Source: a virus
Reading direction: 5' to 3' (one strand)
IMG/VR virus record: IMGVR_UViG_3300045922_000143
Span: 1-20,080 of that record
DNA length: 20,080 nt
The notes under the pieces: model-generated
Databases searched by the model: none
What the model saw: only the letters and a program-made list of their open reading frames with translations
What the model was told of the DNA's origin: nothing
Part shown: positions 113 to 20,080 of the stretch, one piece after another
How the letters are laid out: each line of letters begins with the position of its first letter
Position numbering within the stretch: position 1 is the first letter of the stretch
Translations under genes and position numbers: made by a program

Positions 113-556
113 ATGGGCGATTTCATTACTGGAGTTCGGGTTAGCCCTGGTCTTACTTTCGTGGTCCGGACGGCTACTGCCAATGGCAATACGATTGACC
201 GTCGGGGCTTCGATGCTGTTTCCTTCTGCCTCTTTACTGGCGTCGGCGGCATCACCTTTACCGGCACCAACAGGCTCGACTGGGTGATCCAGCACAGCGA
301 CGACGGGTCTACTTGGGCTGACGTCACTACTGGCGATATTCTGGCGCCGAATGGCCGTGAGCTGACCATTGTGTCGAATGGCCGGGTTGAGTCGTGGACC
401 TCGGCGAAGGCGGCGGAATCAACCACCCACGTGGAGTATATCGGGCGCAAGCGTTATTCGCGCGCGGTGGCGTCTTTTGGCGGCACGCATGGGACTGGAA
501 CGCTTGTCGGCGCGACTGCTCTTCTCAGCCAGCCCACCTACGCCCCGACTGCATAA
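113..556 (+). CDS. Small head-associated protein, possibly head decoration
   Basis: This 147-residue protein starts at an ATG preceded by a purine-rich GAGGGAG ribosome binding site, 11 bases after the capsid stop. It is rich in beta-prone Thr, Val and Gly, has no membrane segment or signal peptide, and shows alternating strand patterns, including an S-D-D-G-S-T-W turn around residue 60, as in small beta-sandwich capsid proteins. Lying immediately after the major capsid gene, it may be a decoration or cement protein, or an outer-capsid protein paired with the downstream Ig/beta-helix protein. I recognise no catalytic motif. The functional suggestion is an inference from position. Confidence 0.5.
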   Translation: MGDFITGVRVSPGLTFVVRTATANGNTIDRRGFDAVSFCLFTGVGGITFTGTNRLDWVIQHSDDGSTWADVTTGDILAPNGRELTIVSNGRVESWTSAKAAESTTHVEYIGRKRYSRAVASFGGTHGTGTLVGATALLSQPTYAPTA

Positions 557-559
557 GAG

Positions 560-581
560 GGGGCCTCGCCGTGAGGCTCCC
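560..581 (+). promoter_or_regulatory. Hairpin covering ribosome binding site and GTG start
   Basis: Bases 560-567 can pair with 573-581 (GGGGCCTC with GAGGCtCCC, one bulged T at 578), leaving a five-base loop at 568-572. The stem contains part of the only plausible Shine-Dalgarno (AGAGGGGG, 557-563), and the GTG start at 571 straddles loop and stem. Such a structure could limit translation of the 836-residue gene. The pairing is seen in the sequence; the regulatory role is inferred. Confidence 0.4.
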
Positions 582-3081
582 TTCCCGCCGGCCAAGGATT
601 CGCTTCGGCGATGGCAACGAGTCTGCGATTGCCACGCCTGGGTTTCGCTATGGGCCCGGCGGCCAAGGCGGCGGTGATCCGCTGTCGATCTCTGGCACAT
701 GGCCCGACGATCTGGTCGTAGGGCAGGCGGTCACGCCTTTTACGCCAACGGTTTCGGGCGGCACCGCGCCCTACAGTTTCGCGGTCATCGGCACTGCGCC
801 CAGTGGTGTCAGCATCAGCCAGACGACCGGCGCGCGCTCTGGCACTCCGGCGCTGGAGGGGCCGTATTCCTTCACGATCCGGGTGACGGACGCGGCTTCG
901 GCGACGGCTGACCTTGCGGTGTCGGGGTCGGTCACATTGGCAGGGGCGCCTTTTCTGGTTTCCGTTGAGACGCACGGGTTTCTGGCCGAGGCGACCAATA
1001 CACCGACCGACATTGTCATTGACCAGTTCGTGCCTGTCCTGCGGACTGGCTATCTTGGCACTACCAGCCTGACCACATGGACAGAGCAGGTTCTGGTGCA
1101 CCAGCGCGCACCGACTCCGGGATCGTTCCCGCGCGCCTATTCCGGCAATCGGGTGGTCCTTAATTCCGTCATCCTTTCCGGCGATGTAATTTCCGGCACG
1201 GTGAATAATAGCACCCGGACAGCACCGGCGCTCGAGGGGTTTTTCACTTGCCCGCTGAACCAGGTTCTTGGCAATTCGGTCACTCTTACTTCAGTGTGGG
1301 AGTGCGCGATGACACGGAACGGGGTTCCTGTCACTCTGGTGCGCTACACGATCTCTTCGCTTGACGGGCCTCAGGAAGTGACAGCGGATGTGACGGCGCC
1401 TGTCGCGCGGTCGCACAGCCTGACCGGGCTTTCGTCGCACTCGTGGGAGGCAACGCTCGACACTTCCGTTATCCCGGACGGCCACCGCGTCAAATACCGG
1501 ATGCAGGGCTACGGCCCCTATGGACAGGTCTTCGACAGCGACGACTGGACCTCGCAGGCAGATATCCTGATTGGTCGCGGCTCGAGGCGCGGGCTGAAAC
1601 ACAACGGGATTGCTACCAATCCCGTCAAAGTTGTCCTTCGTGATACGGCCTCGGGATCGCCAACTGCGTCGACCGACTATGCTACAGCCTATTCCGGGCA
1701 TTACGCGCGCACTACGGCAGGTATCAACTCTGCCCGCACTGCCGCACGGTCACTCAATCTTTCCACCTACGGTATTGACGGGCTGGACGGTGTGGAGTTC
1801 TACATTGGCGGAACAGCCATAGACACGACATTTCATCCGACCAGCCTGACTGTCCTTTACACAGGGATTATTATCCGATCTGACCCGACAGATTTCCCGG
1901 GCGGCGCTGACTTTTTCACAAATTTCCAACCAAACTGGACTGGACACTTGGAAGGCGCGCCGCACAATATCTACGGCCTCACCTTCCGCGATTTTGCAAA
2001 GACAAGGCGGCGGTCGCCGTCCGGCAACACTACTGTAGACTTCATCAGCGGGAGCGGAATTACCGACCTATGGATCGAGGGCGGCGAGCATGACTGCCTC
2101 ACGCCTGGGTCTGCAAACGCTTTTTTGGTGGACGGCGGGGGCGTTGCAACTTTTCTGAATGTGACGATTACGAATAACACCGGAGGCGCAGGAAACTATA
2201 CCGGCGTCATTACTGGCGGGAACGTCAAGTATCTGCGGGTTATCGGTTCGCGCTTTGCAGAGGTCTCGTCCGGTATTCAGGAGGTCGCGTCTCCGCTTAA
2301 AATAGGTTCGGTCTTTGAGCGCACCCGGTTCCGGCTGATCGACATTTCTAACTCTTGGGCAGTGAATAGCCACATTGCAGATGGCTGCCGCCTGTTTAAT
2401 CACAATCCTACCGCTAACGGCATTATGTTGAGTGCGCCAACACTTGCGCAAAAGGATAATACGCGCGGCTGGTATTGGAGGAACTGTCTTTTCGAGAATG
2501 TTTCGAACTCCAACAATGACCGCGCTTCCCTCCTGAGCGACGGCAATATAGAAAGTTGTTTTTGCGTTGTGTTCCGAAATTGCACCGGTGTCGGCTTCAA
2601 ACTTGCTGGCCGTTGGAACGCTTACTACAATCAGAGCACGCCATCGCCGGTTTCAATGTTCCAATATACTTTTTTTGATGCCTGCATTATGCCGCGCTCG
2701 GCGAGCAAGGGCGACATGGACGGCACTCCGGACGGGGCGCGCTATGTCGGGTGGGCCGAGCAGGGGACAATGGTGCTCGGGCGCGGGAACTGGGTGCAAT
2801 GGGTGCCAGCTCCAAACGACCGGCGCGACAGCTGGGGTCCGGGCTCAGTCACTACGACAGACACGGAAGTCTGGAACGATCCCGGTTTTGTCGATTACCG
2901 TGGCTCTGATGGTGTAACTCTCGGCTCTGGCTATGGTGACTACAATCTGACCGCCTCCGCTCCCGCGCGTGGCGGTGTCTCCTACATTCCAGCCTGCCGG
3001 TTTGACGCCGAGGGCAATGCGCTGCCTATCGGCACGGTGCACACAACGCCCGGCTATTTGGCTAACAAGCCCGCACCATGA
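571..3081 (+). CDS. Large Ig-like plus beta-helix protein in the head module (fibre/adhesin-like)
   Basis: From the GTG at 571 this gene encodes 836 residues; the frame is open from 394, but 571 is the first start with a ribosome binding site after the upstream gene ends at 556. Residues 1-38 are a basic, then Gly-rich, lead. Residues about 40-125 form a putative Ig domain of the He_PIG type, with the S-G-T-P...G-P-Y-S-F-T-I-R-V-T-D-A signature. Residues about 400-705 show short, repetitive beta/Asn turns (N-V-T-I-T-N-N-T, then further V-F-R-N-C turns) typical of right-handed parallel beta-helices. No signal peptide or membrane segment is visible. Such proteins are usually tail spikes, but this one lies between capsid and connector genes, suggesting a capsid-attached fibre that binds cell-surface glycans. 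Its middle part is visibly more AT-rich than its neighbours, which may mean separate acquisition. Function is inferred. Confidence 0.7.
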   Translation: MRLPSRRPRIRFGDGNESAIATPGFRYGPGGQGGGDPLSISGTWPDDLVVGQAVTPFTPTVSGGTAPYSFAVIGTAPSGVSISQTTGARSGTPALEGPYSFTIRVTDAASATADLAVSGSVTLAGAPFLVSVETHGFLAEATNTPTDIVIDQFVPVLRTGYLGTTSLTTWTEQVLVHQRAPTPGSFPRAYSGNRVVLNSVILSGDVISGTVNNSTRTAPALEGFFTCPLNQVLGNSVTLTSVWECAMTRNGVPVTLVRYTISSLDGPQEVTADVTAPVARSHSLTGLSSHSWEATLDTSVIPDGHRVKYRMQGYGPYGQVFDSDDWTSQADILIGRGSRRGLKHNGIATNPVKVVLRDTASGSPTASTDYATAYSGHYARTTAGINSARTAARSLNLSTYGIDGLDGVEFYIGGTAIDTTFHPTSLTVLYTGIIIRSDPTDFPGGADFFTNFQPNWTGHLEGAPHNIYGLTFRDFAKTRRRSPSGNTTVDFISGSGITDLWIEGGEHDCLTPGSANAFLVDGGGVATFLNVTITNNTGGAGNYTGVITGGNVKYLRVIGSRFAEVSSGIQEVASPLKIGSVFERTRFRLIDISNSWAVNSHIADGCRLFNHNPTANGIMLSAPTLAQKDNTRGWYWRNCLFENVSNSNNDRASLLSDGNIESCFCVVFRNCTGVGFKLAGRWNAYYNQSTPSPVSMFQYTFFDACIMPRSASKGDMDGTPDGARYVGWAEQGTMVLGRGNWVQWVPAPNDRRDSWGPGSVTTTDTEVWNDPGFVDYRGSDGVTLGSGYGDYNLTASAPARGGVSYIPACRFDAEGNALPIGTVHTTPGYLANKPAP

Positions 3082-4898: not shown

Positions 4899-5324
4899 AT
4901 GGCACTTCTCTCATCTCTGATCTACAAACTGGAAGTCGAGACTGCGACTCCGGGCACTTTCGGCGAGATCAAGGGGCAACAGACGCTGGAATACAGCGCT
5001 TCTGCCCAGACTGTTGACACATCCACGAAGGACACTGGCGCTTACGCGACTTTGCGGGCTGTGCAGAGGTCGGTCACCATCTCCGTTTCTGGTCTTGTGG
5101 ATTTGCCGGACGCAAATGGATTTTCGCGGCTGGAGACAGTCGCCAATGCCGCGCCGCAAGTGCCTTTCAGGGTCCGCATCCGAAAGAGCGGCACCACGAC
5201 TGTCTTCGATGGTGAGGTCATGGCGACAACCTTCGACAAGACGATGAACCGCGACGATGCGGTTGTCGGTTATCGGGTTGAGCTGGTCTCGGCAGCCGCT
5301 CCGACTACGGATACCCTTTCGTGA
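4899..5324 (+). CDS. Major tail tube protein, TP901-1-like
   Basis: This 141-residue protein resembles the TP901-1/Phage_tail_2 major tail protein family: an early W-free beta strand (L-I-Y-K-L-E-V-E-T), the T-L-E-Y-S-A-S-A-Q-T-V-D-T-S-T-K-D-T-G stretch, then V-T-I-S-V-S-G-L-V-D, and a late G-Y-R-V-E-L-V strand. It would polymerise into the non-contractile tail tube. It carries the strongest ribosome binding site seen in the head-tail region (AGGAGG at 4888-4893), as expected for the most abundant tail protein. Its position between the terminator and chaperone genes is canonical. Confidence 0.87.
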   Translation: MALLSSLIYKLEVETATPGTFGEIKGQQTLEYSASAQTVDTSTKDTGAYATLRAVQRSVTISVSGLVDLPDANGFSRLETVANAAPQVPFRVRIRKSGTTTVFDGEVMATTFDKTMNRDDAVVGYRVELVSAAAPTTDTLS

Positions 5325-5701
5325 CGCCTAACCCGGTGCGCGGCGAGATGCGCGTCACTTTGGCTGGCGAGCCTCTCGATTTGCGGCCTTCCTTTGAGTG
5401 CCTGGTTCAGATCGAACAGACATTGGGGAAGTCCATGCTTGCGCTTGCACGCTCGGCAGTCTCCGACGCAGGGCTGACCATCAATGAGATGGCCACCATC
5501 ATCAAGTGTGGTGCGGACGCTTTTGCCGACGCGCACAACACTGGCAATGTCTTCAACACCTCGACAATCGCGGGCCTGATTCTCAAGGAGGGCCTCGTTC
5601 CTTCGCTCGCGGCTGTGGTGCGGTTCCTTGAGGCGGCGGTTCTGGGAGGCGCGGAACCGGCCAAGGGGGAGGCGGGAAAGGCGGAGGCGCCCCGGATGTG
5701 A
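5321..5701 (+). CDS. Tail assembly chaperone, GTA gp10 family (gpG-like)
   Basis: The 126-residue product looks like the GTA TAC family (Phage_TAC_11): N-terminal G-E-M-R-V-T-L-A-G-E-P-L-D-L-R-P-S-F, then helices I-E-Q-T-L-G-K-S and I-N-E-M-A-T-I-I. Such chaperones coat the tape measure protein while the tail tube forms. The GTG start overlaps the tail tube stop by four bases. Near its 3' end, codons 119-120 read GGA AAG preceded by G, forming the heptamer GGGAAAG (5674-5680) in the X-XXY-YYZ phase. A -1 shift there enters the downstream frame without meeting a stop, so a longer 175-residue gpGT-like fusion is likely made as well. The unshifted product ends six residues after the site. Confidence 0.85.
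   Translation: MTPNPVRGEMRVTLAGEPLDLRPSFECLVQIEQTLGKSMLALARSAVSDAGLTINEMATIIKCGADAFADAHNTGNVFNTSTIAGLILKEGLVPSLAAVVRFLEAAVLGGAEPAKGEAGKAEAPRM
5674..5680 (+). promoter_or_regulatory. Probable -1 ribosomal frameshift site GGGAAAG
   Basis: The heptamer lies in frame as G GGA AAG in the upstream chaperone gene and is the same heptamer used in the lambda G/T tail chaperone frameshift. Slipping back one base puts ribosomes into the frame of the small downstream gene (5698-5847), which is open through this point. The site sits 19 bases before the upstream stop codon. Heptamer, phase and open frame are directly visible; use in the cell is inferred from the conserved dsDNA-phage mechanism. Confidence 0.75.
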
Positions 5702-5847
5702 TCGACTGGCGCCGTTTCATGGGCACGGCGGTGGCCCACATGGGATGGTGCCCAAACACTTTCTGGGCCTCTACGATGCATGAATATCAATCTGCGGCTG
5801 AGGCTCTGAGGGCCTCCGAGCCAAAGGGGATAGGCGGCGGTGTCTGA
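5698..5847 (+). CDS. Second tail chaperone segment, rcc01693/TAC_6-like
   Basis: A 49-residue frame opens at a GTG at 5698 that overlaps the upstream TGA and ends at the TGA at 5845. It carries the family pattern M-G-W-C-P-N-T-F-W-A-S-T-M-H-E-Y, close to the W.P..FW..T..E signature of the small GTA protein between gp10 and the tape measure (rcc01693 type, Phage_TAC_6). The protein may be made alone from the GTG, as the C-terminal part of a -1 frameshift fusion with the upstream chaperone, or both. Its stop overlaps the tape measure start. It is below the usual length cut-off for automatic gene calls. Confidence 0.8.
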   Translation: MIDWRRFMGTAVAHMGWCPNTFWASTMHEYQSAAEALRASEPKGIGGGV

Positions 5848-7492
5848 CGATATCAAAACACTCCTGCTGCGGATTGAAGCGACCACCGAGTTGTTGCGCG
5901 CGGAGACACGGCGTGGTGAGCAGTCGCTCGCGCGCCTCGATGAGCGCGCCACTAAGTCTGGCGAGAAGATCGACTCAGCGTTCGCGCGCATGTCTCGCGC
6001 GGCTGCGAGCCTCAAGACGGCCTTGGCTGGTCTTGCTGGCGGCATTGCAATTTCAACATTTCTCAGCCTTGGCCGTGGCGCCCTTCAATTCGCAGACGAC
6101 TTGCAGACTGCGGCGGACCGCGCGAATGTTTCGGTTGAGACGTATCAGCGGTTGCGCGAGGCGTTGCGCGCTCTTGAGCTGGACACTGCCCAGACAAACC
6201 GGGTGCTGGAAGGCCTGATCACGACGCTCGGCAAGGCTCAGACTGGCACTCTGTCCGATTCAGAGGTGGCAGCTCTTGAGCGGCTGGGTGTTGCGGCAAA
6301 GATCGCGTCCGGCGAGATTCAGGACACTGCCGGGCTTCTCGATGAGCTTGGGCGGGCTTCGGCGCGCTACTCCACACAGGCGCAGTTTGCGGCTGATTTG
6401 AGCGCGATCGTCGGTCAGCGGCTCGGTCCCAAGCTGGCTGCGGCGCTGGCTGATGGCGGGCAGGCGTTTCGGGATTTGGCAGCGGCGGCGAATGTCGCGA
6501 GCGATGCCCAGGTTGCGGCGCTCGCGGCAGCCAGTGAGGCGCTCGACCGGACGCGCGAAAATTGGAGGCGGTCTGTTATCTCAATTGCGGGATCCGCGGT
6601 TATCCTTTTCGAGCAGCTTGGTCAGGCGGTCCAGCTTTTCAGGCAGGCTGGTGGCCGCATTCCGCTTCTCGACGCACTCAAGGAGGTCCGGCGCGAGGCA
6701 GAGCTGGCGCAGAAGTTCCCGCTTGATCGCTTCCTGCCGCAGCCACCAAAGTCAGGCCCCCTTCCGCAGCAGCCGCCACGGTTCCGGAGTCCAGATAACG
6801 ACTCGTTCCCAAAGCTGGCAAAGAGTGTGCGCGAGACGGATAGGGAGTTGGCAGTATTTCAGGCGCGCATGGACAACTTTGCCGAAGTCGCGGCCAAGTT
6901 GACGGCAGAGGCTGGCAATTTCACCATGATGCGCGATGTCTTCAAGGACCTGGAGCCGATTATTCAGCGCACCATCCCGAACCTCTCCAAACCTTTTGAG
7001 GATGCCGCCAGATTTGCCCGTAGCCTGAGCGACAACCTTGCGCAGGCGATTGTCAATGGTCAGGGAATTGGTCGCGCGCTTGTCAGCAGCTTCAAGGCTG
7101 CGGCGGCGGAGGCAATTTCAAGCGGTCTTTTCCGTCTGCTGATCGGCACTGGCGAAACCGGAGTGCCTACGGGGTTAATCGGCGGCCTTTTTTCAAAGCT
7201 GGGCGGTCTTTTCGGAGGCTTCCGGGCGAGCGGCGGTCCTGTTTCGGCGGGCCGCGCATATGTTGTTGGGGAGCGCGGCCCTGAGCTGTTCGTGCCGCGC
7301 GCGGCGGGCGTGATCCAGCCATCTGCCGGAGGCGGCGGCACGGTCATCAATGTGGACGCTCGCGGCGCGGTCAGTCCTTCCGCTGTCGCGGAGGCGACTG
7401 TTTTCGCGGTCCGCACGGCCACACGCTACACGGACGCGCGGCTCGGTCGGATGGCGAGGCCGACACTGCCGCGTGGGGGAGGTGCGCCATGA
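5840..7492 (+). CDS. Tail tape measure protein
   Basis: This 550-residue protein has the composition and layout of a tape measure protein. A helical, coiled-coil-prone N-terminus (about 1-50) is followed by a hydrophobic stretch at about 53-75, long Ala/Leu-rich helices, a second hydrophobic segment near 245-262, a Pro/Gln-rich break near 293-320, and the typical C-terminal motif near 466-495 (G-R-A-Y-V-V-G-E-R-G-P-E-L-F-V-P). It sets tail length and helps DNA entry. It is longer than the RcGTA tape protein but short for siphoviruses, implying a short tail. The GTG at 5840 overlaps the chaperone stop, and it follows the chaperone pair as usual. Confidence 0.9.
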   Translation: MSDDIKTLLLRIEATTELLRAETRRGEQSLARLDERATKSGEKIDSAFARMSRAAASLKTALAGLAGGIAISTFLSLGRGALQFADDLQTAADRANVSVETYQRLREALRALELDTAQTNRVLEGLITTLGKAQTGTLSDSEVAALERLGVAAKIASGEIQDTAGLLDELGRASARYSTQAQFAADLSAIVGQRLGPKLAAALADGGQAFRDLAAAANVASDAQVAALAAASEALDRTRENWRRSVISIAGSAVILFEQLGQAVQLFRQAGGRIPLLDALKEVRREAELAQKFPLDRFLPQPPKSGPLPQQPPRFRSPDNDSFPKLAKSVRETDRELAVFQARMDNFAEVAAKLTAEAGNFTMMRDVFKDLEPIIQRTIPNLSKPFEDAARFARSLSDNLAQAIVNGQGIGRALVSSFKAAAAEAISSGLFRLLIGTGETGVPTGLIGGLFSKLGGLFGGFRASGGPVSAGRAYVVGERGPELFVPRAAGVIQPSAGGGGTVINVDARGAVSPSAVAEATVFAVRTATRYTDARLGRMARPTLPRGGGAP

Positions 7493-16681: not shown

Positions 16682-16860
16682 AGCACAGCCCTCCACGCCG
16701 CTTCCAGCGCGGGCCAGAAGACATGCGCGATCAGGAGCGTGATCGCCACGACAGCCATAACCATCCACGCGGCCTGCATCCGCTCCTTGACGATGCGGTC
16801 AATCTCCCCTTTCGGGATCGGGCCGTCATCGTGGCGACGGCCAGCGCGGGTGCTTCTCAT
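16678..16860 (-). CDS. Small single-pass membrane protein
   Basis: A 60-residue product starts at the ATG overlapping the upstream TGA (ATGA). A basic N-terminus (R-S-T-R-A-G-R-R-H) is followed by an amphipathic segment (I-D-R-I-V-K-E-R-M-Q) and one transmembrane helix (about 31-49, A-W-M-V-M-A-V-V-A-I-T-L-L-I). Positive residues before the helix suggest the N-terminus stays in the cytoplasm. It lies in the recombination-type operon, not the lysis module, so it may act on the host membrane early, for example in superinfection exclusion. That role is speculation. Confidence 0.65.
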   Translation of the reverse strand: MRSTRAGRRHDDGPIPKGEIDRIVKERMQAAWMVMAVVAITLLIAHVFWPALEAAWRAVL

Positions 16861-17993
16861 GCTACTTCCTCCTCTCTGATGGGGTTGCCCGGCGCCTGCT
16901 GAATGGTGAACGCACAACAGGTGGCCGGGCAATCTTCGGCGGGCGATTGAACGTTGGGTGTCCCTGTTCCATTGGCCCGCCACGCCCGCCACAGGTCTCG
17001 CAGCAGGCGTTTCTCGGTGTAGCGCTTGGCCCTGTTATGGGCGTGCGCTGCTGTCTCGACGCGTCCGGCCTCATAGGCCTTGCGCTCAAGGTAAAGCGCG
17101 CCATAGGGACCGATAGCGCGGCTGCCGGTGCGGGTGCCGTCCTCGTCCCTCTCGGCCCGCACTTGGGCCTTGATCAGGCACTCGCCGACATTCCACATCA
17201 GCGACCGCCGCGTCGGGCTGTATCCGTGCTCAAGCGCCGCATCACCGGCAACCCTGCGCTGCCGCCCGCCGCTGATGACGCCCAACCCCATCCGCTTCCA
17301 GAGCGCGGCGGGGCTGCGGAAGTCGCCCGGTGCATGGCCGCCGCACTCGCCGATGATGCCAGCAAGCGACACATCGCCCAGTCCTGACACGGTGGCGGTC
17401 CATTCGTGGATTGGCAGCGTCCTTACCAGCTTGGCAAGCGTGCGCTCGGTCGCGGCCTGTTGGGCCTCAAGCGGCTCCATGGCCGCCAGCATGGCACCGA
17501 GCCACGCACGCTCTGGCGCGGCAGGATCGCGCTTGACCTGCACCCATCGCTTGGCGGCTGCCACCTTATCGCCGTCGAGCAGGCGCCGCAGGACGGCCTG
17601 TGCCTGCAACTCCAGCCGCTGCCGGGCGCGTATCATGTCCTGCCGCAACCGGTGGTGCTCGACGATCTGCCCGATGGTGTCCGCGAGGGCGGGCGAGCGG
17701 TGGTTGTCGCAGGCCGATAGGCCCTCGCGGATGGGGCGAGCGGAAGGCGCCGCGCGCCTGGGTTTCGCGGCGTTTGTGGCCTTCCGCTCAGTGGTATCCG
17801 CGTGGGCGGACAGTCGGTGGTTGTCGCCATTCGGCAGGCCCTCGCGGATGGGTTGAGCGGAAGGCGCCTCGATACTGGTTTTCGGCTCACTTGTGACCTT
17901 CCGCTCAATGGTGCGAGGCGTCGAAGCCATGGGTTCCAATCTGGCATTGGCCTCGCCGCCGGTGGTTCCGGCGATTCCTGTGATCTCAAGCAT
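16857..17993 (-). CDS. IS110-like coiled-coil plus Tnp-domain protein lacking the RuvC-like domain
   Basis: This 378-residue protein has three parts. Residues 1-105 are hydrophilic and include two in-frame 39-residue repeats (28-66 and 67-105). Residues about 106-195 are helical and Arg/Leu/Ala-rich. Residues about 196-340 match the C-terminal transposase domain of the IS110/IS116/IS902 family: a helix-hairpin-helix-like V-S-G-L-G-D-V-S-L-A-G-I-I-G-E-C-G, then D-F-R-S-P-A-A-L-W-K-R-M-G-L, the I-S-G-G-R block with Ser241 where the catalytic serine lies, H-G-Y-S-P-T-R-R-S-L, and the terminal A-H-A-H-N-R-A-K-R-Y-T-E-K-R-L-L-R. The N-terminal DEDD/RuvC-like half is missing. It is part of a phage operon with RecT, not flanked by transposon ends, so it is probably a phage DNA-binding or recombination protein. 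CAGGAGAC precedes the start, which overlaps the previous gene by eight bases. Confidence 0.7.
   Translation of the reverse strand: MLEITGIAGTTGGEANARLEPMASTPRTIERKVTSEPKTSIEAPSAQPIREGLPNGDNHRLSAHADTTERKATNAAKPRRAAPSARPIREGLSACDNHRSPALADTIGQIVEHHRLRQDMIRARQRLELQAQAVLRRLLDGDKVAAAKRWVQVKRDPAAPERAWLGAMLAAMEPLEAQQAATERTLAKLVRTLPIHEWTATVSGLGDVSLAGIIGECGGHAPGDFRSPAALWKRMGLGVISGGRQRRVAGDAALEHGYSPTRRSLMWNVGECLIKAQVRAERDEDGTRTGSRAIGPYGALYLERKAYEAGRVETAAHAHNRAKRYTEKRLLRDLWRAWRANGTGTPNVQSPAEDCPATCCAFTIQQAPGNPIREEEVA
17674..17907 (-). repeat. 117-bp in-frame tandem repeat, two diverged copies
   Basis: Units 17674-17790 and 17791-17907 align with a constant offset of 117 bases (39 codons) and similarity runs a few bases beyond. 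Each carries a ten-base inverted repeat, GAGCGGAAGG and CCTTCCGCTC (17738-17747 with 17780-17789; 17855-17864 with 17897-17906). In copy one an inner CGCCGCG/CGCGGCG pair could extend the hairpin. The repeats encode the 39-residue units of the IS110-like protein. Confidence 0.88.
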
Positions 17994-19007: not shown

Positions 19008-20080
19008 TCATTCCCGATCGGCATCGACCGGCGCGGCGGCAAAGTCGCGCTTCATCCGGTCCTTGAGCGCCACCAGCATGATGTAAGTCTCAGGGTCCAT
19101 CGCCTTGAGCTTGATGAGGTCGCTCTTGAGCTCAATCCAGTTCGCCTCCAGCGTGGCCGCCGTCGACATCTTGAGCTTGCGCTCGATGCTGGCGGCCAGC
19201 ACGACGCTTTCCGGCTCGCCCATGTCGAAGCCCTCGGGCATTTCCTCGGCGGCATCCTCGACCGCGAACGGCAGATCGCCGGGAAAGTCGTCGTCATCCG
19301 GCTGCGCCCCTTCGTCCGTGTCCTCAGCGCCCCCCGCAATATACTGCTCGAGCGCGTCAAGCCGCGACTGCGGCGCCGGCTGCTGCGGCGAGGCAATCAA
19401 CATCGCCGCCGCGTCGGCCTGCATCGTCTCGTCACGCTCGAACTCGGCCTCGATGTCCGTGCTCATCGGCAGCCTTTTTGCCAGCCGGCGCATGACCGTT
19501 TTGCGCGCCATTTCGCCCCACCATGCGAGCCACGGCCCATTGTCCCTGGAGCGGCTGACGCTGCGGACCTGTTCGATCTGCTGGCGGCTCATGATTTCAA
19601 CGAATGCCGCGCCGTTCTTGAGCCGGGCAACGGCATAGGCACCCACCACCTTCCCGCGCTCCCCGAACCAGTCAGGCTCGTGAACGGGCACTTCATCGAT
19701 GCCGGGGCGATAGGTAAACTTGTCCGCCTCGTGCACAAGCTGGGCGTCAATGCTTGCCAATTCGCCCGACTGCCGGACCTTTTTCAGGATGCCGGCTACC
19801 ATCGGCATCCACTGGACCTGGGCGCCGTGCTTGCCCTTGAAGATCACAAGCGCGCCTTCGCGTCCGTCCGGCAACAGACCGTCCTGCGCCGCCTTGACGA
19901 TGGCCCCGAACAGCGAGCGACGGTCGGCGTCCAGAAGAGCGGGCGTCGATTGAATGGCCGTCATCGTGACGCGCTGAAACTTGTCAACCGACACGTGGCT
20001 AGGCAGCGCCATCTTGAGTTGCTCGCCCATTGTGGACAGCGTCTGCCGCACCACGGCAACGGGGTCTGCTCGCCGCTCTG
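19008..20080 (-). CDS. recT: RecT-family single-strand annealing protein (partial, start outside window)
   Basis: The frame is open to the right edge; residues before the first internal start (A-D-P-V-A-V-V-R-Q-T-L) continue the RecT N-terminal pattern, so the true start lies beyond base 20080. RecT landmarks are present in order: A-L-P-S-H-V, F-Q-R-V-T-M-T-A-I, S-L-F-G-A-I-V-K-A-A-Q-D-G-L, H-G-A-Q-V-Q-W-M-P-M, then H-E-A-D-K-F-T-Y-R-P-G, A-Y-A-V-A-R-L-K-N-G, the N-G-P-W-L-A-W-W-G-E-M-A-R-K-T box and R-L-A-K-R-L-P-M-S-T-D. RecT binds single-stranded DNA and anneals complementary strands in phage recombination. After the core comes a very acidic linker (D-D-D-D-F-P-G-D-L) and an extra helical segment. 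No exonuclease partner is visible here; it may lie outside. Confidence 0.93.
   Translation of the reverse strand, partial: ERRADPVAVVRQTLSTMGEQLKMALPSHVSVDKFQRVTMTAIQSTPALLDADRRSLFGAIVKAAQDGLLPDGREGALVIFKGKHGAQVQWMPMVAGILKKVRQSGELASIDAQLVHEADKFTYRPGIDEVPVHEPDWFGERGKVVGAYAVARLKNGAAFVEIMSRQQIEQVRSVSRSRDNGPWLAWWGEMARKTVMRRLAKRLPMSTDIEAEFERDETMQADAAAMLIASPQQPAPQSRLDALEQYIAGGAEDTDEGAQPDDDDFPGDLPFAVEDAAEEMPEGFDMGEPESVVLAASIERKLKMSTAATLEANWIELKSDLIKLKAMDPETYIMLVALKDRMKRDFAAAPVDADRE

Follow-up and report, generated by a model that had tools for sequence, protein, structure and literature searches.

A likely programmed -1 frameshift in the tail assembly chaperone genes of a siphophage contig related to those of Alphaproteobacteria

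How the smaller of two overlapping tail genes is reached by the ribosome is the question raised by this locus. The window, i.e., the whole stretch of DNA that was analyzed (20,080 bases; IMG/VR virus record IMGVR_UViG_3300045922_000143), contains genes that Pfam and PHROGs place in the order head-tail connector, tail terminator, tail tube, PF11836, PF09550, and tape measure. The overlapping pair thus sits between the major tail (tube) protein gene (4899..5324, + strand; PF06199 Phage_tail_2, E 1.4e-11; phrog_1407 major tail protein, E 3.1e-16) and a tail length tape measure gene encoding 550 aa (5840..7492, + strand; phrog_2276 tape measure, E 4.6e-12). The first gene of the pair (5321..5701, + strand) has a GTG start and encodes a 126-aa, gpG-like tail assembly chaperone of the GTA-gp10 family (PF11836 Phage_TAC_11, E 6e-7; 29.9 bits over 5321-5698, above the gathering cut-off of 27.8). 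The second (5698..5847, + strand) is gpT-like and would encode 49 aa if read from a GTG (PF09550 Phage_TAC_6, E 1.2e-6; 29.3 bits over 5698-5844, above the gathering cut-off of 23.4). NCBIfam contains no match for either chaperone protein, and PHROGs yields only weak matches for the first. Elsewhere in the window, the sole match of an 895-aa ORF located 5' of the connector genes (394-3081, + strand) is to the Ig-like domain PF05345, and a RecT-family protein (PF03837) is encoded at 19008-20054 (- strand). Additionally, an ORF at 16857-17993 (- strand) resembles the TIGR-Tas RNA-guided endonuclease family NF052498 of NCBIfam (E 2.8e-22; 79.7 bits, short of the 100-bit cut-off), and on the 5' side of its Tas-like domain lies a tandem repeat (17674-17912; period 117, two copies) with two inverted pairs per unit, which may represent a short TIGR array.

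The AlphaFold model of the first chaperone protein (pLDDT 87) comprises five helices and a short hairpin; confidence drops below pLDDT 50 in residues 112-123 of the tail, where most of the slip-site region lies. The HK97 chaperone 2ob9_A aligns to it with a Z of only 3.6 (85 residues, 4.8 A), unrelated globins following close behind, and the structure matches in BFVD include tail assembly chaperones. Against the PDB, sequence searches with this protein found nothing relevant, and Foldseek returned no match at E 0.001.

The sequence-only reading had proposed that the two genes are joined by a programmed -1 frameshift at a GGGAAAG heptamer, and the elements of that proposal that can be read directly from the DNA are confirmed by translation. 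The heptamer (5674..5680, + strand) is phased as G GGA AAG by the reading frame of 5321-5701, where the codons at the slip site are GCG GGA AAG. The slippery heptamer of lambda G/T is likewise G GGA AAG. The second part lies in the -1 frame and overlaps the first without an intervening stop; this frame runs uninterrupted from 5632 until its stop codon at 5845-5847 (5632..5847, + strand), opening at -67 from the stop of the first gene, and takes in both the heptamer and the gpT-like part. After a shift, the product would continue from 5680 and comprise 120 + 55 = 175 aa (junction, AGK/GGGAPD), compared with 126 aa for the unshifted product, both lengths being those proposed. When the upstream protein was kept and its codons were redrawn, an in-phase heptamer appeared in the open overlap of the window in 3.4% of draws, and the phased heptamer taken alone is suggestive, no more. 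Searches with the window proteins recovered only one sister contig (L002; ~92% identical DNA), plus weak phage and plasmid matches. The sister contig retains the heptamer and its phase, and between heptamer and GTG it differs from the window at two positions only, both silent in the first frame and residue-changing in the -1 frame, a pattern that counts against the -1 frameshift reading.

A second possible route to the small gene, absent from the sequence-only reading, is provided by the GTG at 5698, which is in the -1 frame and overlaps the TGA stop of the first gene (GTGA). This GTG is weak evidence of initiation, since a TGA stop with a -1 partner always produces NTG at the overlap. However, a GGAGG located nine bases ahead (5684..5688, + strand), a possible ribosome binding site that is kept in the sister contig, means that it may be a genuine start, from which the small gene may also be separately translated, and with both elements in place a shift is not needed for its expression. 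The window sequence alone is ambiguous between a frameshift and a separate start, and it is the relatives that tip the balance towards the frameshift.

Junctions between PF11836 and PF09550 were collected from phage and plasmid records, IMG/VR, Sphingomonas-type genomes, and class-, family-, and order-level genome draws, with both domains located using custom-built profiles. The even class-level draw comprised 385 genomes, with PF11836 in 52 and PF09550 in 45; the family draw comprised 248 genomes queried with the tail tube protein of the gene transfer agent RcGTA, of which 184 were positive and the best 30 loci were used; and in the two order draws 34 of 96 genomes and 12 of 61 genomes were positive, with 30 of 34 matches and 17 of 17 matches, respectively, used as loci. 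T-domain matches without a partner were found at L139, L020, and L009. Merging duplicates reduced 203 junctions to 164 distinct ones, 146 of them in the -1 frame, 14 in the +1 frame, and 4 in the same frame. A junction was considered start-less if ATG, GTG, and TTG were all absent between a point 40 bases ahead of the first gene's stop and the second domain's core; by start codon, the -1-frame junctions divide into 66 with none, 55 with ATG, and 25 with GTG or TTG only. The heptamer definition used first required a phased X XXY YYZ with X unlike Y and Y = A or T. The wider definition covers any phased X XXY YYZ (Y = A or T) within the open overlap (GGGAAAN, CCCTTTN, and A AAA AAR), its A-run heptamers were added after results had been inspected, and counts are reported under both definitions.

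Among these relatives, the phased heptamer occurs mainly where a start codon is missing. Under the wider definition it is present in 60 of the 66 start-less -1 junctions versus 3.75 (sd 1.8) expected from synonymous recoding of the upstream gene, compared with 5 of 55 junctions with an ATG (0.64 expected by the same recoding), a difference corresponding to a Fisher p of 2.7e-21 with relatedness ignored. The narrower definition places an in-phase heptamer in 52 of 67 start-less junctions and matches in the other two phases in 0 and 2; the corresponding off-phase counts under the wider definition, 7 and 9 of 66, are explained by long A runs that fit several phases. The even class sample alone (43 junctions in total) has the heptamer in 17 of 21 start-less -1 junctions versus 1 of 11 with an ATG. 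After clustering at 60% identity, start-less clusters number 22 with and 5 without the heptamer, and ATG clusters 3 with and 11 without. In 52 junctions the entire open -1 frame lacks ATG, GTG, and TTG, and 47 of these contain the heptamer. The -1 frame opens no more than 12 bases before the heptamer in 12 of 60 loci, and in L098 and L086 it opens exactly at the heptamer, the preceding codon being a stop, so that only a slip at that position could reach the small gene. The start-less -1 junctions without a heptamer are L008, L010, L066, L068, L101, and L105, and there is one start-less +1 locus (L090). A tree-based independent-pairs test found three supported pairs, too few for significance. 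Judged by phase and by the within-locus null, the association between a missing start and the heptamer is strong, though shared descent of the loci may contribute to it.

The sequence-only reading had pointed to related phages as the place where conservation of the heptamer and its phase should be visible, and the closest loci agree with it. Besides the sister contig, the nearest relatives of the window are L098 (39%; GGGAAAC) and L062 (38%; GGGAAAT), both start-less, and L006 (35% to the window; GGGAAAT) is start-less as well; the pattern that would have refuted the reading, a missing heptamer or a stopped -1 frame, is not seen in these nearest relatives. Annotated phages also include junctions of this type. 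In Sinorhizobium phage phi2LM21, the annotated start of the second chaperone gene, p43 (L005, 1468-1719), is a CTG that overlaps the upstream stop, and the phased GGGAAAG suggests that this start is an annotation artefact. Rhizobium phage RHph_Y3_1 (L004, 1118-1689), annotated as two genes, carries GGGAAAC in phase, and a stop in the -1 frame lies just 5' of it. In Escherichia phage mEp515 (L009, 1063-1743), a weak PF09550-like match occurs within one 226-aa ORF in which PF11836 was not found, possibly a natural single-gene form.

These comparisons bear on three other explanations. The window pair could be two separate genes with start-stop coupling, in which ribosomes terminating at the TGA would restart at GTG 5698 by means of the GGAGG, and GGGAAAG would be incidental or left over. 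The GTGA overlap with a GGAGG at nine bases, in both the window and its sister contig, would be expected from such coupling, as would the heptamer-free GTGA of the locus identical to RcGTA (L216) and the own starts seen in Sphingomonas and Rhodobacteraceae loci. This explanation is nevertheless improbable, given that an NTG at the overlap is obligatory, that the nearest relatives combine a phased GGGAAAN with the lack of a start, and that the heptamer is enriched even among the GTG/TTG junctions (6 of 25 versus 0.38 expected, the window and its sister contig being counted among these). A related alternative, not exclusive of the frameshift but a refinement of it, is that both routes operate, slippage yielding the fusion and GTG 5698 supplying extra free T domain. 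Both signals are present in the window and kept in its sister contig, and two other loci are alike in this respect (L087, with GGGAAAG and a TTG at the overlap; L092, with CCCTTTG and a GTG at the overlap), but a free T is outside the lambda scheme as presented in the available portion of PMC5009743, and this refinement is regarded as possible while somewhat unlikely.

A third explanation concerns the comparative signal rather than the window. In many loci the CCCTTTN heptamer coincides with a conserved Pro-Phe-x-Trp motif of the small protein, of which it could be a by-product unconnected with slipping. The codon usage speaks against this, since the Phe at the slip site is TTT in 30 of 30 CCCTTTN loci compared with 43 of 149 at other positions of these genes. 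Moreover, these CCCTTTN loci lack starts and have Shine-Dalgarno-like elements upstream, and the motif leaves GGGAAAN and A-run loci untouched, making this explanation very improbable.

The frameshift reading is well supported because 60 of 66 start-less -1 junctions have the in-phase heptamer, and it is probable that the window contains a lambda-type G/T tail assembly chaperone unit, expressed by a -1 frameshift, from a siphophage related to alphaproteobacterial ones; the event proposed by the sequence-only reading is therefore likely. What we infer for the window is slippage, at a low rate and with a function modeled on lambda. Most ribosomes would translate the first gene as far as its TGA, producing the 126-aa gpG-like chaperone, and a small share would move back one base at G GGA AAG, giving the 175-aa fusion that includes the gpT-like domain. 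On the lambda analogy, the partner of the G part would be the tape measure protein and that of the T part the tail tube protein, the ratio setting orderly tail assembly. PMC5009743 describes G-T frameshifting as conserved widely among long-tailed phages and G_GGA_AAG as a sequence that is highly shift-prone in E. coli, a frameshift is usual in the chaperone genes of the phages described in PMC8601537, and one is argued for in other phages (PMC12846349).

A candidate stimulator of slippage in the window is a Shine-Dalgarno-like element, AAGGGGGAGG (5663..5672, + strand), directly 5' of the heptamer. The best 8-mer starting at -21..-12 from the heptamer has a predicted energy of -9.9 kcal/mol to the anti-Shine-Dalgarno sequence (rank 0.038 relative to the rest of the gene), and a similar element precedes the heptamer in the sister contig. 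The spacing is short; in dnaX the stimulatory Shine-Dalgarno sequence is ~10 bases from the slip site, and the window element is nearer to its heptamer. In class means for which the relatedness of loci was not controlled, 8-mers 21-12 bases before the heptamer in start-less loci average -7.9 versus -3.4 kcal/mol in the rest of the gene for CCCTTTN (n=32), -5.3 versus -3.2 kcal/mol for GGGAAAN (n=20), and -7.1 versus -3.8 kcal/mol for A runs (n=8). Downstream RNA structure was rejected as a stimulator in the window, where its z of 0.0 indicates no excess; nor is an excess clear for start-less junctions with a heptamer, whose class means range from z 0.1 to -1.1. A GGCGCC hairpin 3' of the slip site was also discarded, being broken by a change in the sister contig.

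The sequence-only reading had further claimed that gp10 of gene transfer agents (GTAs) and its small neighbor are the G and T parts of one frameshifted unit, a claim that holds for several lineages and fails for RcGTA and its family. In 40 of the 60 start-less heptamer junctions, the tail tube gene ahead of the pair has 35% or more identity to the RcGTA tail tube protein Rcc01691 over at least 100 residues, with CCCTTTN in 31, A runs in 6, and GGGAAAN in 3; in the ten CCCTTTN loci listed, the tape measure is 174-228 aa, similar to RcGTA-family loci and unlike the window. Among the best 30 Rhodobacteraceae loci, both genes were found in 29, all 29 have an own start, 8 of the 29 are not in the -1 frame, and none of the 21 -1-frame loci has a phased heptamer. 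L216, with a tail tube 100% identical to Rcc01691 and by inference from R. capsulatus, overlaps as GTGA and lacks the heptamer. All 35 Sphingomonas-type junctions have a start and none has a phased heptamer (first definition). A frameshifted pair is thus indicated in many RcGTA-type clusters, and the lineage of RcGTA itself uses separate starts. The papers listed by the literature searches, covered by title and abstract or by selected passages, contain no description of a frameshift at the PF11836/PF09550 pair in GTAs.

Whether the -1 frameshift is ancestral for alphaproteobacterial prophages and RcGTA-type GTAs is an evenly balanced proposition, under which the site would have been swapped several times (GGGAAA, CCCTTT, AAAAAA) and some lineages, Rhodobacteraceae (with RcGTA) and Sphingomonas among them, would have moved to start-stop coupled genes. 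If so, the GTAs long credited with two independent chaperone genes would descend, by splitting, from a single frameshifted unit. The comparison indicates that many RcGTA-type clusters need a frameshift to reach the second gene and that RcGTA itself does not, which offers a testable example of a homologous gene pair that has moved between two modes of setting a protein ratio. Annotation is likely to miss the start-less small second genes of such clusters or to assign them false starts, as with the CTG of phi2LM21.

Compared with known systems, the window shares with phi2LM21 p42/p43 and relatives the phased GGGAAAG, and phi2LM21 itself is start-less for the second gene; the proteins are distant, and the phi2LM21 pair is annotated as two genes. 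RcGTA g10/g10.5 belong to the same two protein families and likewise adjoin the tail tube gene; the available portion of PMC11409702 treats them as two chaperone genes, the word 'frameshift' not occurring there. The RcGTA-identical locus differs from the window in having its GTGA overlap without a heptamer, and the tape measure of the RcGTA family is ~220 aa compared with 550 aa. The window has neither of the marks of an RcGTA-type GTA, its tape measure being long and its tail tube gene going unmatched by Rcc01691 in tblastn (E 1e-3). The lambda gpG/gpGT pair resembles the window in gene order, in the overlap with the second gene in the -1 frame, and in a heptamer near the end of the first gene; the window differs in its families (PF11836/PF09550) and in its possible own GTG start. 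The proposed frameshift mechanism is of the known lambda G/T kind.
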